In this document: piece after piece, positions 17,843 through 21,762 of the stretch | How positions within the stretch are numbered: the first letter of the stretch is position 1 | Layout of the letters: every line of letters begins with the position of its first letter | NCBI RefSeq assembly: GCF_008386395.1 | Contig: NZ_CP043761.1 | Coordinates: 4,588,001-4,652,000, forward strand | Source of the DNA: Paenibacillus sp. 37 | GTDB taxonomy: Bacteria; Bacillota; Bacilli; Paenibacillales; Paenibacillaceae | Direction: 5' to 3' | DNA: 64,000 nucleotides | Made by a program: the position numbers and the translations under genes | The notes under the pieces: model-generated | The model's input: the letters and a program-made list of their open reading frames with translations, nothing else | What the model was told of the DNA's origin: nothing | Database searches by the model: none

Positions 17843-18880
17843 TTATTCTTCTACAACACCAAGAGCTTTATTTTTCTCCTTAAAGCGACTGTTATGGGAA
17901 GAAACATAAGCCACTTTTTCCGCTTCAGGGTCCATGTAAAGCTTCGCACTGTTTACCGCTAGGGCTGCATCAGTGAAAGTACCTGCAATCAGGTACAGTT
18001 TGCTACCATAATTTACAAAGTCACCTGCGGCAAAAACACCAGGAATATTGGTTTGCAATCTCTCCGTTGTAGTGACATGCCATTCGCCAAGATCAAGTCC
18101 CCAATCCCGGATTGGACCAAAGTCACTCTTCATGCCATGGTTTACAATGACAGCATCGACTTCAAGCAGTTCAGTTTCACCTGTGTCCACGTGTGAGATG
18201 GTCACCTGTTCAATCACATCACCACTCATACTATGCAAGGTCTCTACCGCATATGGTGTACGGACATCTACAGAGGATTCTCTCATACGCAGTACATTAC
18301 GCTCCAACCCGCCAAAGCGGTCACGACGATGCACCACCGTAACTTGCTCTGCCAGTGCTTCCAGTTCATTCGCCCAATCCACAGCAGAGTCGCCTCCACC
18401 CGAGATCAGCACGCGTTTACCACGGAATGGTTCTAGTTCCTGTACGGTATAGTGCAGATTGCTAACCTCATAACGGTCTGCACCTTCAAGCTCCAGCTTG
18501 GCCATTTTATATATCCCATATCCGATTGCCATAATGACGGTACGTGTCCAGTGTTGCTCACCTGTTGCAGAAGTTAACAGAATCGTGCCATCAGGTTGAC
18601 GCTCGAATCCTTCGATCTGTTGTTCAAACACAAGGGTTGGCTCGAAAGTTCGAGCCTGTTCTTCCAATTGTTTGATCAGATCCTCACACAGAATTGGTGT
18701 CACACCTCCAACATCCCAGATCATTTTCTCCGGATAAAAGAGCATGCGACCGCCCAATCTGTCACGCGCCTCAATCAACTTGGTCTTCATATCCCGCATG
18801 CCGCTATAAAAGGCAGAGTACATGCCCGCAGGGCCACCGCCGATAATGGTTACATCATAAAGTTCCAACTGCTGATTCAT
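17843..18880 (-). CDS. Ferredoxin/flavodoxin-NADP+ reductase, thioredoxin-reductase-like
   Basis: Dimeric FAD enzyme of the YumC/YcgT type that passes electrons between NADPH and ferredoxin or flavodoxin. The FAD motif [16 protein letters not shown] (about residues 11-26), the NADPH motif [18 protein letters not shown] (about 160-177) and the late FAD contact [12 protein letters not shown] (about 282-293) are visible. The CxxC of true thioredoxin reductases is missing, as expected for this class. Length is 345 residues. ATG follows GGAGG. A Fur-box-like site lies about 50 bases upstream, so iron repression is likely and a role in iron release or iron-sulfur supply is plausible. Confidence 0.9.
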
Positions 18881-18927
18881 ATTAAAAATACCTCCGTTAA
18901 TTCGATCCAGAACATCGAGTATTTGAT

Positions 18928-18946
18928 ATCGATTCTCATTATCACT
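18928..18946 (-). promoter_or_regulatory. Fur-box-like operator before the NADP reductase gene
   Basis: The minus strand reads TGATAATGAGAATCG, which matches TGATAATnATTATCA at 11 of 14 defined positions. It lies about 50 bases before the start codon. Confidence 0.6.
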
Positions 18947-19034: not shown

Positions 19035-21008
19035 CTATTGCGCTCTTGGAGCCGCCAACATCTTTTCTACGACAAAATCAAGTTGTTTATTGACTGAATA
19101 GATATCGGAATAATAGAAAAATTCAAAATCAATCTCGATCAGACGGCCTTCCTTAACAGCCGGTATGCTACTCCAAATTGGATCATTCGTAAGGTTATCT
19201 GCCCCTTCATACACCGAACGAAACACATAATCACCGATATACTCAGGCAGTACTTCCATGGATAAGTTGGAGCCTCCTGCTTCCGAAACCACATCAATTT
19301 TCTTTTGCACTACTTCCGGAGCTTTCATGTCCAAGTACTCATATAGTGCCTGAGAACCTCGGCCATATTGCTTGCTCTCTACAACGACCATACCTTTCAA
19401 ACCGCCCTCCACAATGGAAACCGTTTTATCCAATATGCCTGCATCTGCAAGTGTTTTCTTGCTTTCTTCAACTTTGCTGTTGAGATTAGTGATTAATGTC
19501 TCGGCTTCCTGTTCTTTGCCAAAAACACTCGCTATACTCCGGAGTCTTTCTTCTGTAGTCATTTTCTCGTACGGAATATATACCGTAGGTGCGATATCCT
19601 TTAACAACGAATACGTCTCTTCTGAAGGCGCAATAATCAGATCCGGATCGAGGTCTATTACAGCTTCAGGATTCGGTTCAAACCAGGCACCCAGTGAATT
19701 TACACCTTCAAGTTCACCCTTATATGCAGCTCCGGCGAATACTTCTGAGGTAGCGATTGGCTTAATTCCAAGTGCGACAACATCCCCCTGGAGATACAAT
19801 ACAACAACCCGTTTCGGATTCGCTGGAACAACCACGTCACCTTTAACCGTTGAGACCGTACGTGTTTCATTGTCTTTGTTCGTCTGGCTTCCAGTGTCCG
19901 ATGACACGGCCGTACTGCTGTTATTGGAACTGGCACCCGTTCCTTCGCCAGCTGCTGGTGTTGTTGCAGTACCTGAAGAGCAGGCTGCGAGGAGCATCGT
20001 TATGCTCAACAATGCAACCATGATCATACTGGAACTTGTTTTTCTTCTTCTCATTGGTGTAGACCCTCCGTCTATATATTGATAATGATTCTCATAATCA
20101 ATATATCCCGACTTCCATCTTCGGCCAATGGACGATTCAGAGATTTGCAATGGACGATCCTCTGTTCGAGCTTCTTCTCTCATCTTTCGTTGATACAGAA
20201 TCGGAGAGATCCCCACATGTTTTTTGAAAATACGACTAAAATAATACACATCCGAATAACCCACTTCTGTTGCAATTTCACTCAGCGTTGCATCAGATCG
20301 TACAAGCAGATTCCGAGCCTTGGCGATTCGGGTCTGAATTAAATAATAAATTGGACTGTAACCCGTCTGTCGTTTGAATTGCATGGATAAATGTCGGGAG
20401 CTGTAGTTGAACTGTTCAGCCAGGAAATCAAGCGTCACCTGTTCCCTATAATGGTTCTGTATATAACGAAGTGTTTGTTTCACCGGGTCAGCAAGCTCTG
20501 TTTTAATCTCCTGCTCTGCCAACTGAACCATCATTTCATGAATGAATTGGTAAAATAAACTTTTTGTATGAAGCAGATCCAGACTGCCAGATTGAATCCA
20601 TGCACCCTCAAGCTCATCAAGGTAACGTAACAACCCCAGCGGACTACTTGGCGTAAATCCATATTGCAAAGAGAACGGTGCAACCTCTGGCTGTGCCAAT
20701 AACCACTTTTTGCGAAAACTAGGAAAGGCAAGGAATGCTCTGTAATAGAGCAGAATATATTCAAAATCTTCGTTGGTTTGGATATCCAGTGAAGATCCTT
20801 TGGCCCCATGAAGCATGTAAAATCGCTCTGCATTGTAAGCTCTACCATCCATTTGGAGGTCAGCGGAGCCTCGAATCGTATATATAAAAGCATTTGCCGG
20901 AAGTGTGTAGGAACTCAGTTGTGCCCCTGCCTCCATAACGATTCGTCGTATATCCAGAACCTTAACAGCGGCATGATTCCAGCATTTCATCTGTTCGTCT
21001 AATTGCAT
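19035..21008 (-). CDS. AraC-family regulator fused in frame to a siderophore-binding lipoprotein
   Basis: One open frame of 657 residues. Residues 1-165 look like a cupin-type sensor domain. Residues 190-275 are two AraC helix-turn-helix units (LDFLAEQFNYSSRHLSMQFK, then LSEIATEVGYSDVYYFSRIF). Residues 276-318 are a linker. Met319 begins a complete lipoprotein signal (RRRK, hydrophobic core, LLAAC with Cys343). From about 385 a ferric-siderophore-binding fold follows (NPKRVVVLYLQGDVVALGIK, DLDPDLIIAP). The ATG at 21008 has GGAGAG six bases upstream. Btr of B. subtilis is a known AraC-binding-protein fusion, but it has no internal lipobox that I know of. Met319 has its own GGAGGG ribosome site and an adjacent Fur box, so the second half may also be made separately from 20054. 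No permease gene is nearby. Confidence 0.82.
   Translation of the reverse strand: MQLDEQMKCWNHAAVKVLDIRRIVMEAGAQLSSYTLPANAFIYTIRGSADLQMDGRAYNAERFYMLHGAKGSSLDIQTNEDFEYILLYYRAFLAFPSFRKKWLLAQPEVAPFSLQYGFTPSSPLGLLRYLDELEGAWIQSGSLDLLHTKSLFYQFIHEMMVQLAEQEIKTELADPVKQTLRYIQNHYREQVTLDFLAEQFNYSSRHLSMQFKRQTGYSPIYYLIQTRIAKARNLLVRSDATLSEIATEVGYSDVYYFSRIFKKHVGISPILYQRKMREEARTEDRPLQISESSIGRRWKSGYIDYENHYQYIDGGSTPMRRRKTSSSMIMVALLSITMLLAACSSGTATTPAAGEGTGASSNNSSTAVSSDTGSQTNKDNETRTVSTVKGDVVVPANPKRVVVLYLQGDVVALGIKPIATSEVFAGAAYKGELEGVNSLGAWFEPNPEAVIDLDPDLIIAPSEETYSLLKDIAPTVYIPYEKMTTEERLRSIASVFGKEQEAETLITNLNSKVEESKKTLADAGILDKTVSIVEGGLKGMVVVESKQYGRGSQALYEYLDMKAPEVVQKKIDVVSEAGGSNLSMEVLPEYIGDYVFRSVYEGADNLTNDPIWSSIPAVKEGRLIEIDFEFFYYSDIYSVNKQLDFVVEKMLAAPRAQ
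20064..20128 (-). promoter_or_regulatory. Fur box, promoter-like hexamers and RBS inside the fusion reading frame
   Basis: Within the linker coding region the plus strand has TGATAATGATTCTCA at 20080-20094, one mismatch from the Fur consensus, centred in a 33-base near-palindrome (20073-20105) that codes for YIDYENHYQYI. Minus-strand hexamers TTGGCC (20123-20128) and TATATT (20100-20105) are 17 bases apart; a second pair, TTGATT (20096-20101) and TATATA (20073-20078), is also 17 apart, but would start transcription on the RBS. GGAGGG (20064-20069) precedes ATG 20054. Confidence 0.7.
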
Positions 21009-21116: not shown

Positions 21117-21146
21117 ATTATAAATGATAATAATTTTCATTATCAA
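21117..21146 (-). promoter_or_regulatory. SigA-type promoter with Fur box, upstream of the AraC fusion
   Basis: The minus strand has TTGATA (21141-21146), an 18-base spacer and TATAAT (21117-21122). TGATAATAATTTTCA (21125-21139, plus strand) is one mismatch from the Fur consensus and fills the spacer, so Fur binding would block RNA polymerase. Confidence 0.78.
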
Positions 21147-21199: not shown

Positions 21200-21683
21200 T
21201 TATTCTTGTTCAGAGATCTTCGTAAACCACGCAGCCAATTCCTCTGTTTGATTCAATGTTGCAATCGGGTCAAAGTACCATGAACGTCCGGGCTCCAGAT
21301 AAACACACGATCATTTTTAACCCATCCAGTGAACTCCAGACAAGTTTCGATTTCAACTCTTCCAGGGTCAGATTGTTCGCTGTTAGAATAATGTAATCCT
21401 CCACCAGGCAGGTTTGTTTTGTACATCAAGTAATATAGGCGCAATCAGGATTCGCCTGCTTGAATCACCAACTTACTTCCTTTTGCCCCATGGATAATAT
21501 AAAAGCGACTCACTTCATATGTTTGCTTGTCAGCGTCACTCCAGCATCACCCTGAATGGTGAGTACAAAGGTACTTGTTGGAAATTTGTAATTCATCTCT
21601 TCTTATGCCTCTAATTCCATGTAACGAATATCTGTTATACTCACCGCAGCATAGTTCCAGAGGATATAATAATCATTCCACAT
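21200..21683 (-). pseudogene. Remnant of a second AraC-siderophore-binding fusion gene
   Basis: Reading the minus strand from ATG 21683 gives WNYAAVSITDIRYMELEA then a stop, which parallels WNHAAVKVLDIRRIVMEA of the intact neighbour. Past the stop and a frameshift, RFYIIHGAKGSKLVIQAGE parallels RFYMLHGAKGSSLDIQTNE. The helix-turn-helix part and most of the binding protein are gone. The last part reads, across two frames, LEELKSKLVWSSLDGLK, NDRVFIWSPDVHGT and FDPIATLNQTEELAAWF, like the C-terminus of a siderophore-binding protein. So it keeps both ends of a fusion like that at 19035, with a large internal deletion, at least two stops and several frameshifts. Confidence 0.78.
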
Positions 21684-21742
21684 TTTGCTAACCCATCTCC
21701 GTCTACATAGATTGTGTCTGAACTTCCACTCACTTAATAATA

Positions 21743-21762
21743 AACATTATCAATTATTATGA
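21743..21762. promoter_or_regulatory. Degenerate Fur-like site before the pseudogene
   Basis: AT-rich sequence with TTATCAATTATTATGA. The reverse strand matches the Fur consensus at 10 of 14 positions. It is weak on its own and credible mainly by location. Confidence 0.35.

Follow-up and report, generated by a model that had tools for sequence, protein, structure and literature searches.

The window (i.e. the whole stretch of 64,000 nucleotides from Paenibacillus sp. 37 that was analysed) carries on its minus strand a long frame that starts at an ATG (21008, with GGAGAG upstream) or at a TTG (21011) and whose stop codon ends at 19035. The initial annotation had described an uninterrupted frame of 657 codons joining an AraC regulator, a lipobox and a binding domain, and both ORF reading and Pfam agree with it. 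The chain contains, in this order, an AraC regulator, a linker, a hydrophobic, charged segment terminated by LLAAC, the last residue of which is Cys343 (numbering from the ATG), and a Peripla_BP_2 domain. In the 658-aa form, Pfam places HTH_18 at 197-275, HTH_AraC in two stretches and Peripla_BP_2 at 438-629 (72.5 bits for a cut-off of 27.5). The two helix-turn-helix units that define AraC/XylS regulators are thus present, HTH_18 and HTH_AraC both scoring above their cut-offs. An AlphaFold model of the long chain (48 alignment rows, mean pLDDT 80.6, pTM 0.45) is confident at both ends. The linker (284-325) is of low confidence and predicted to be disordered, a helix (326-342) directly precedes Cys343, residues 344-379 are of low confidence and the binding domain begins at about 380. 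This domain is nearest in sequence to FhuD/YfiY-type siderophore-binding proteins (3hxp, 142 bits), and 3tny, FhuD2 and 3hxp are closest in fold.

The linker also carries a set of putative control features (Table 1), namely an operator repeat, a promoter, a Fur box, a Shine-Dalgarno sequence and an ATG, which were absent from the account given by the initial annotation. As expected for the Fur regulon, a predicted box is found at the promoter, with 13 of 14 positions matched both in the linker and upstream of the long frame.

Table 1. Features of the nested regulator-lipoprotein gene (positions in the window)
Feature	Position	Strand	Basis
Long frame, 657 codons, AraC regulator and siderophore-binding lipoprotein in one	19035..21008	-	ORF reading, Pfam
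Fur-like box upstream of the long frame, 13/14 positions	21125..21139	-	Box score
AraC half: N-terminal domain rich in beta and two helix-turn-helix units	20187..21008	-	Pfam, AlphaFold model
Linker, 44 codons; its protein is predicted to be disordered, its DNA reads as a control region	20055..20186	-	Synonymous variation, AlphaFold model
Predicted AraC operator, distal half-site GATCGTCCATTG	20148..20159	-	Repeat test, covariation
Predicted AraC operator, proximal half-site AATCGTCCATTG (offset of 22 bp; overlaps the -35)	20126..20137	-	Repeat test, covariation
-35-like TTGGCC of the predicted internal promoter	20123..20128	-	Promoter scan
-10-like TATATT, spacer of 17 bp	20100..20105	-	Promoter scan
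Internal Fur-like box TGAGAATCATTATCA, 13/14, read in frame as Y-E-N-H-Y-Q	20080..20094	-	Box score
Shine-Dalgarno GGAGG	20065..20069	-	Sequence
Internal ATG start, coding for Met319 in the long chain	20052..20054	-	Sequence, member alignment
Signal peptide and lipobox LLAAC, lipidation at Cys343	19980..20054	-	Sequence, AlphaFold model
Siderophore-binding domain (Peripla_BP_2), FhuD/YfiY-like, with Glu448 and Glu585	19038..19982	-	Pfam, structure-database comparison

The same layout, with lipobox and internal start, was found in 147 members that form 50 clusters at 65% identity and belong to at least four family groups of the class (outside the own family, those coded f3, f19 and f22). They were retained from 151 sequences, among which L124, L143, L144 and the second L141 frame have no internal start; L145 was counted apart. 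A smaller set of 106 members corresponds to 109 unique ORFs minus three non-members. Five nested members are encoded by the genome of Paenibacillus sp. 37 itself. In the source records, members are mostly named AraC family transcriptional regulator, an annotation that conceals the lipoprotein.

The internal start codon is an ATG in 144 members, a GTG in two and a TTG in one. The initial annotation had asked whether the fusion and the lipobox are conserved among homologues: both are kept in relatives, the lipobox ([LVIM][SAGT]AC) in all 147 internal-start members. The hydrophobic segment has a mean hydropathy of 2.1 and the first nine residues have a net charge of at least +1 in 145 of the 147. 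In 106 members, the ATG lies 20-25 residues before the lipobox cysteine, and a Shine-Dalgarno-like word of at least four bases precedes the internal start in 101 of these. When linkers are anchored on the Fur box, the repeat, the -35, a spacer of 17 bp, the -10, the Fur box and the start follow each other in that order in 44 of the 50 clusters, among which L141 is a poor fit (2 of 12 repeat matches). The usual operator register is missing from the other six (L078, L103, L106, L142 and two of L154), all of which are fused and have a lipobox and a start. In these and in L003, also of unusual register, the Fur-like box is mostly located 58-64 bases before the start. The linker of L145 has no Fur-like box of at least 12 matches; the methionine and the lipobox are present. 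The distance from -10 to start ranges from 39 to 72 and is always a multiple of three because the frame must stay open. Upstream of the long frame, a Fur-like box of at least 12/14 occurs in 33 of the 49 clusters examined, the mean score being 11.5 versus 9.0 in shuffles.

All of the 21 Paenibacillus records have an open linker, and 19 of them an open frame throughout (L025 is broken in the binding domain and L027 near the N-terminus); this set leans towards open linkers because the linker peptide was among the search patterns. Genome searches that ignored stop codons gave a match in at least 49 of 60 genomes of the genus (E<=1e-50), in at least 49 of 148 genomes and at least 12 of 19 genera of the family (E<=1e-60) and, binding domains alone included, in 39 of 250 genomes of the class (E<=1e-45). 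Eleven stop-containing matches spanning the linker were read among the matches listed: the stop lies outside the linker in seven (L086, L119-L124) and in the linker in the remaining four (L125-L128), where the genes are separate. Searching with only the AraC half gave a list of 77 matches in 59 family genomes (E<=1e-28). Of the 60 matches at E<=1e-40, 56 belong to frames of at least 600 aa and none is a stand-alone AraC gene. The four exceptions are a broken copy (L186), two genes whose frame is interrupted within the binding domain (L187, L188) and a fusion that has no signal peptide (L189); L190, one of the 56, also lacks the signal peptide. Among the 17 weaker matches, eight lie in frames of 280-323 aa, which is the size of a stand-alone AraC gene.

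Codon usage in the linker indicates constraint at the DNA level. The proportion of same-residue codon pairs that differ is 0.02-0.13 at codons -38 to +3 of the internal start and 0.25-0.37 elsewhere, and synonymous variation recovers about ten codons into the signal peptide, the collapse being confined to the control region. Furthermore, dS values are 0.05-0.31 for the 23 codons at the end of the linker, versus 0.18-1.57 for the binding domain (12 clusters with at least three members). The Fur box scores 13.2/14 versus 11.5 (sd 0.2) in synonymous recodings (24 clusters). The excess is small for the promoter (9.23 versus 8.76, sd 0.14, real and recoded linkers being scanned alike) and slighter still for the Shine-Dalgarno sequence (5.29 versus 5.05, sd 0.10). 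At the level of protein, about 71 stop gains would be expected in the linkers if stops were free, and none is seen among members. This estimate relies on a rough spanning tree with 1272 linker substitutions, 5.3% of single changes giving a stop, in 25 clusters with at least two members (122 rows), and the members were selected as open frames. The other two frames of the linkers contain stops in 92 and 106 of the 106 members, frame 0 being open by choice of members. Since stops are absent despite the constraint on the DNA, two layers of selection, one on DNA and one on protein, seem to act on the same linker bases.

Operators of AraC/XylS family regulators are direct repeats separated by about two helical turns and located near the -35. 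In the 44 clusters, the similarity between half-sites peaks at an offset of 22 bp, with 7.09 of 12 matches, whereas 49 other offsets give 2.92 (sd 0.31) and synonymous recodings reach 4.23 (sd 0.19). The two half-sites are in different codon phases, and they are more alike within a gene than across genes (7.09 versus 6.01, sd 0.18; 0 of 5000). The offset of 22 bp emerged from a scan for 21 bp and was then tested on the same data, whereas the covariation tests came later; 21 bp itself shows no excess (3.07 versus 3.11 at other offsets). The -35 and -10 positions were the best pair near the Fur box, chosen on the real sequence, and their excess in the repeat test is inflated for this reason.

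Moreover, the distance between operators follows the distance between recognition helices (43 clusters, L141 being left out), with a Spearman coefficient of 0.47 and a partial coefficient of 0.46 when the remainder of the AraC half is controlled for (0 of 2000 permutations). The corresponding values are 0.09 for the rest of the AraC half (248 of 2000) and 0.08 for the binding half (313 of 2000). When the AraC half was scanned in 88 windows (42 clusters, L151_146 also being left out for its incomplete AraC half), the second recognition region comes first (0.49, for a median of 0.005), followed by the first recognition region (0.37 just after it and 0.33 on it). The partial coefficient is 0.30 (2 of 2000) once eight TGCC-type rows are left out. 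Half-sites with TGCC are mostly paired with helices like PDAHSLSRSFKK and those with TCC mostly with xDVYYFSRxFKK. Crude operator classes placed on trees were uninformative, requiring 8 changes in the AraC tree as against 9 in the SBP tree. Three operators, out of the five members of the own genome, were searched for with up to three mismatches and occur once each in 7.6 Mb, the patterns used being such that they would miss weaker sites. Since the half-sites covary with the recognition helices of their own regulator and not with the rest of the regulator half, this regulator very likely binds inside its own gene. The linker DNA would then very likely be its on-switch for the production of extra binding protein alone.

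The binding domain of nested members is predicted to be of the transport type. Glu448 and Glu585, which we take to be equivalent to the residues docking on the permease in relatives, are invariant in 48 sequences. They are kept in 49/50 and 48/48 of the aligned nested clusters, respectively, as well as in the three unfused rows and in L145. The counts are 2/3 and 1/3 in the signal-less rows, and 4/9 and 3/9 in the shorter Btr-like fusions of the own genome. FecCD-like permease frames are present in 7 of the 66 loci read, and no permease gene adjoining the window member was found at its locus.

Gaballa and Helmann reportedly described in 2007 that Btr of Bacillus subtilis regulates feuABC. Btr is regarded as a cytosolic sensor of imported siderophore and, to our knowledge, it has neither a lipobox nor an internal start. 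Two articles (PMC3896406, PMC9609785) present this protein, also called YbbB, as an AraC regulator fused to a siderophore-binding domain, and it is the precedent for such fusions. Like Btr, the frame studied here combines an AraC helix-turn-helix with a FeuA-like siderophore-binding domain and may be linked to siderophore uptake, which Btr controls. However, Btr acts on a separate gene, whereas here the linker of the regulator itself holds the target's operator, promoter and Fur box together with its start. Identity with Btr was ruled out by the score against the Btr equivalog model NF049932 (112.3 bits for an NCBI cut-off of 900) and by the lipobox and export signal between the domains, in line with the initial annotation, which had set the frame apart from Btr. 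The own genome also encodes nine or more AraC-SBP frames of smaller size (538-595 aa; L160-L167, L008), none of which scores above the Btr cut-off.

Natural variants give some indications on the history of the gene. In L125-L128 and L192, which are unfused, the stop codon of the regulator lies in or beside the operator, and a separate lipoprotein gene comes after the same 22-bp repeat and promoter; these pairs differ from the nested genes by this stop codon. A Fur-like box is present in L192, and none of at least 11 matches was found between the genes of L125-L128. In the tree of AraC halves (midpoint root), the unfused L125, L126 and L128 fall outside the nested rows (support 82, not starred), and one Btr-like row, the long-branched L008, falls inside the nested ones. 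The signal-less L124, L143 and L144 group with L136, a nested member, among the nested rows (98, starred), and L143 and L144 keep the half-sites and the -10 (by eye). The simplest history would be that an existing unit of regulator, operator and lipoprotein was fused and kept since then, export being lost in a side branch. This history is weakened by the disagreement between the trees of the two halves: congruence was not found (Mantel r 0.13, Spearman 0.03, same nearest neighbour in 17 of 50). It is as if binding domains had been swapped between regulators while the frame was kept, but long branches would give the same picture and may be partly responsible. Since the fused domain of this branch can hardly be a transport lipoprotein, it is more likely to be a sensor. 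Downstream of L124 and L144, FhuF-type reductase-like and MFS transporter-like genes were noticed by eye. In addition, a stand-alone AraC gene of the own genome (L195, C1:3611500-3616000) ends in a similar operator followed by a cupin-like gene (by eye); therefore, an operator in the tail of the regulator is not tied to siderophore lipoproteins.

We consider it probable that this single gene is a self-inducing siderophore-uptake switch, whose linker control region would also make the lipoprotein alone. The frame and its conservation, the constraint on linker DNA, the repeat and its covariation with the helices are read in the sequence, and we infer the other steps from them. Under iron starvation, Fur would leave both sites, and a scarce long chain, being both regulator and sensor, would be made from the upstream promoter. 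Binding of siderophore to the C-terminal domain would cause this chain to bind the repeat in its own linker and to activate the internal Fur-gated promoter. Much free lipoprotein would result and would feed an ABC permease, until the return of iron closes both Fur sites. The separate lipoprotein would most simply come from internal initiation rather than from cutting of the long chain, since the lipoprotein half has its own start, Shine-Dalgarno sequence, promoter and Fur box. The long chain itself is most likely anchored in the membrane, its regulator half facing the cytosol and its binding domain the exterior, since a signal peptide sits inside it in every internal-start member; this location is the least certain part of the mechanism. 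The full version is possible rather than probable: a membrane-spanning AraC-siderophore receptor would feel siderophore outside, bind an operator in its own coding sequence and fire the Fur-gated internal promoter for free lipoprotein, a single stretch of DNA combining the roles of protein linker, operator, promoter, Fur site and ribosome-binding site.

If true, this would be a minimal private siderophore switch, in which the sensor, the receptor and the control DNA are passed on together in a single gene, and it would help to explain how several copies (five in the own genome) stay apart. It also makes two questions testable: the reporting of outside siderophore to DNA in Gram-positive bacteria, and the long-term upkeep of promoter DNA and protein code in one stretch.

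The use of the long chain is deduced from the lack of stops, since the unfused relatives indicate that the internal promoter needs no fusion. Among the alternatives, the one keeping the most weight, although unlikely, is that the frame gives two products and no working fusion, the long chain being a tolerated read-on that lacks a stop. It agrees with a lipoprotein that has its own start and control region, with linker residues that are predicted to be disordered and are mainly constrained as DNA, and with the existence of unfused relatives. However, it would not account for the absence among members of the approximately 71 linker stop gains expected, nor for the lack of any stand-alone gene among the 60 close AraC halves found by a stop-blind search. 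Furthermore, the signal-less L124, L143 and L144 are still fused even though their domain can no longer be a lipoprotein.

This persistence of the fusion in signal-less relatives also argues against a second, rather improbable alternative, in which the long chain is inserted and then cleaved by signal peptidase II ahead of Cys343. Such cleavage would leave an AraC regulator held in the membrane and provide lipoprotein from a second source, with no signalling by a single chain. The lipobox present in 147 of 147 members and the predicted helix 326-342 just before Cys343 would suit such a cut, but conservation of the lipobox is uninformative about the long chain because the short form needs it anyway. 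The same relatives lend some weight to a third alternative, to which we give a poor chance: the long chain would be cytosolic and sense imported siderophore like Btr, its signal segment being buried or ignored. L124, L143 and L144 have indeed lost the export signal and kept the fusion inside the nested group, and Btr is a precedent; yet the strong hydrophobic segment of every internal-start member should insert. Finally, a sequencing error or a stop codon lost recently in this strain (the latter being the plain alternative of the initial annotation) has only the unusual layout in its favour and is rejected with near certainty, because every one of the 21 records has an open linker and relatives carry the same one-frame layout, which stop-agnostic searches find to be common across genomes of the genus and family.

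In the self-inducing switch that we favour, several parts are known, i.e. the AraC-SBP fusion as in Btr, internal starts and Fur sites. The binding domain resembles the lipoproteins FhuD2, YfiY and FhuD by its fold and sequence, its lipobox and its paired glutamates, but these are encoded by separate genes, whereas here the domain also ends a regulator. In FecA/FecIR-type surface signalling of Gram-negative bacteria, an uptake receptor also reports its ligand to transcription. This role is alike, but it involves several proteins and a sigma factor instead of one gene. CadC and ToxR have a DNA-binding N-terminus of the winged-helix type, one membrane segment and a sensing domain outside. They are similar only if the membrane reading holds (here with the predicted helix 326-342), and they differ by their winged-helix domain and by having neither a siderophore domain nor a nested gene. 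In-frame internal starts giving short forms of proteins are also known. In these cases, a second start lies in the same frame, whereas here the DNA-binding half of the long form appears to control the short form. Sense-strand transcription starts within genes are documented in Paenibacillus riograndensis SBR5, where 835 have been mapped (PMC5670726). We know of no case in which the coding linker of a regulator serves as operator and promoter for the second half of that same regulator, and no description of the layout was found in a literature search of partial coverage, most subscription journals lying outside it.

Two other observations concern the neighbourhood of the gene. Downstream, at 17843-18880, lies a gene encoding a thioredoxin-reductase-like FAD protein, which could be an iron-regulated reductase; a Fur-like sequence (18924-18938, read by eye) precedes it. 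On the other side, a decayed remnant of a tandem nested gene of the L012 type is found at 21203-21743 on the minus strand. It consists of pieces of the first 117 and last approximately 70 residues in several frames, and an intact paralogue occupies its place in relatives, for instance L014 and G052.
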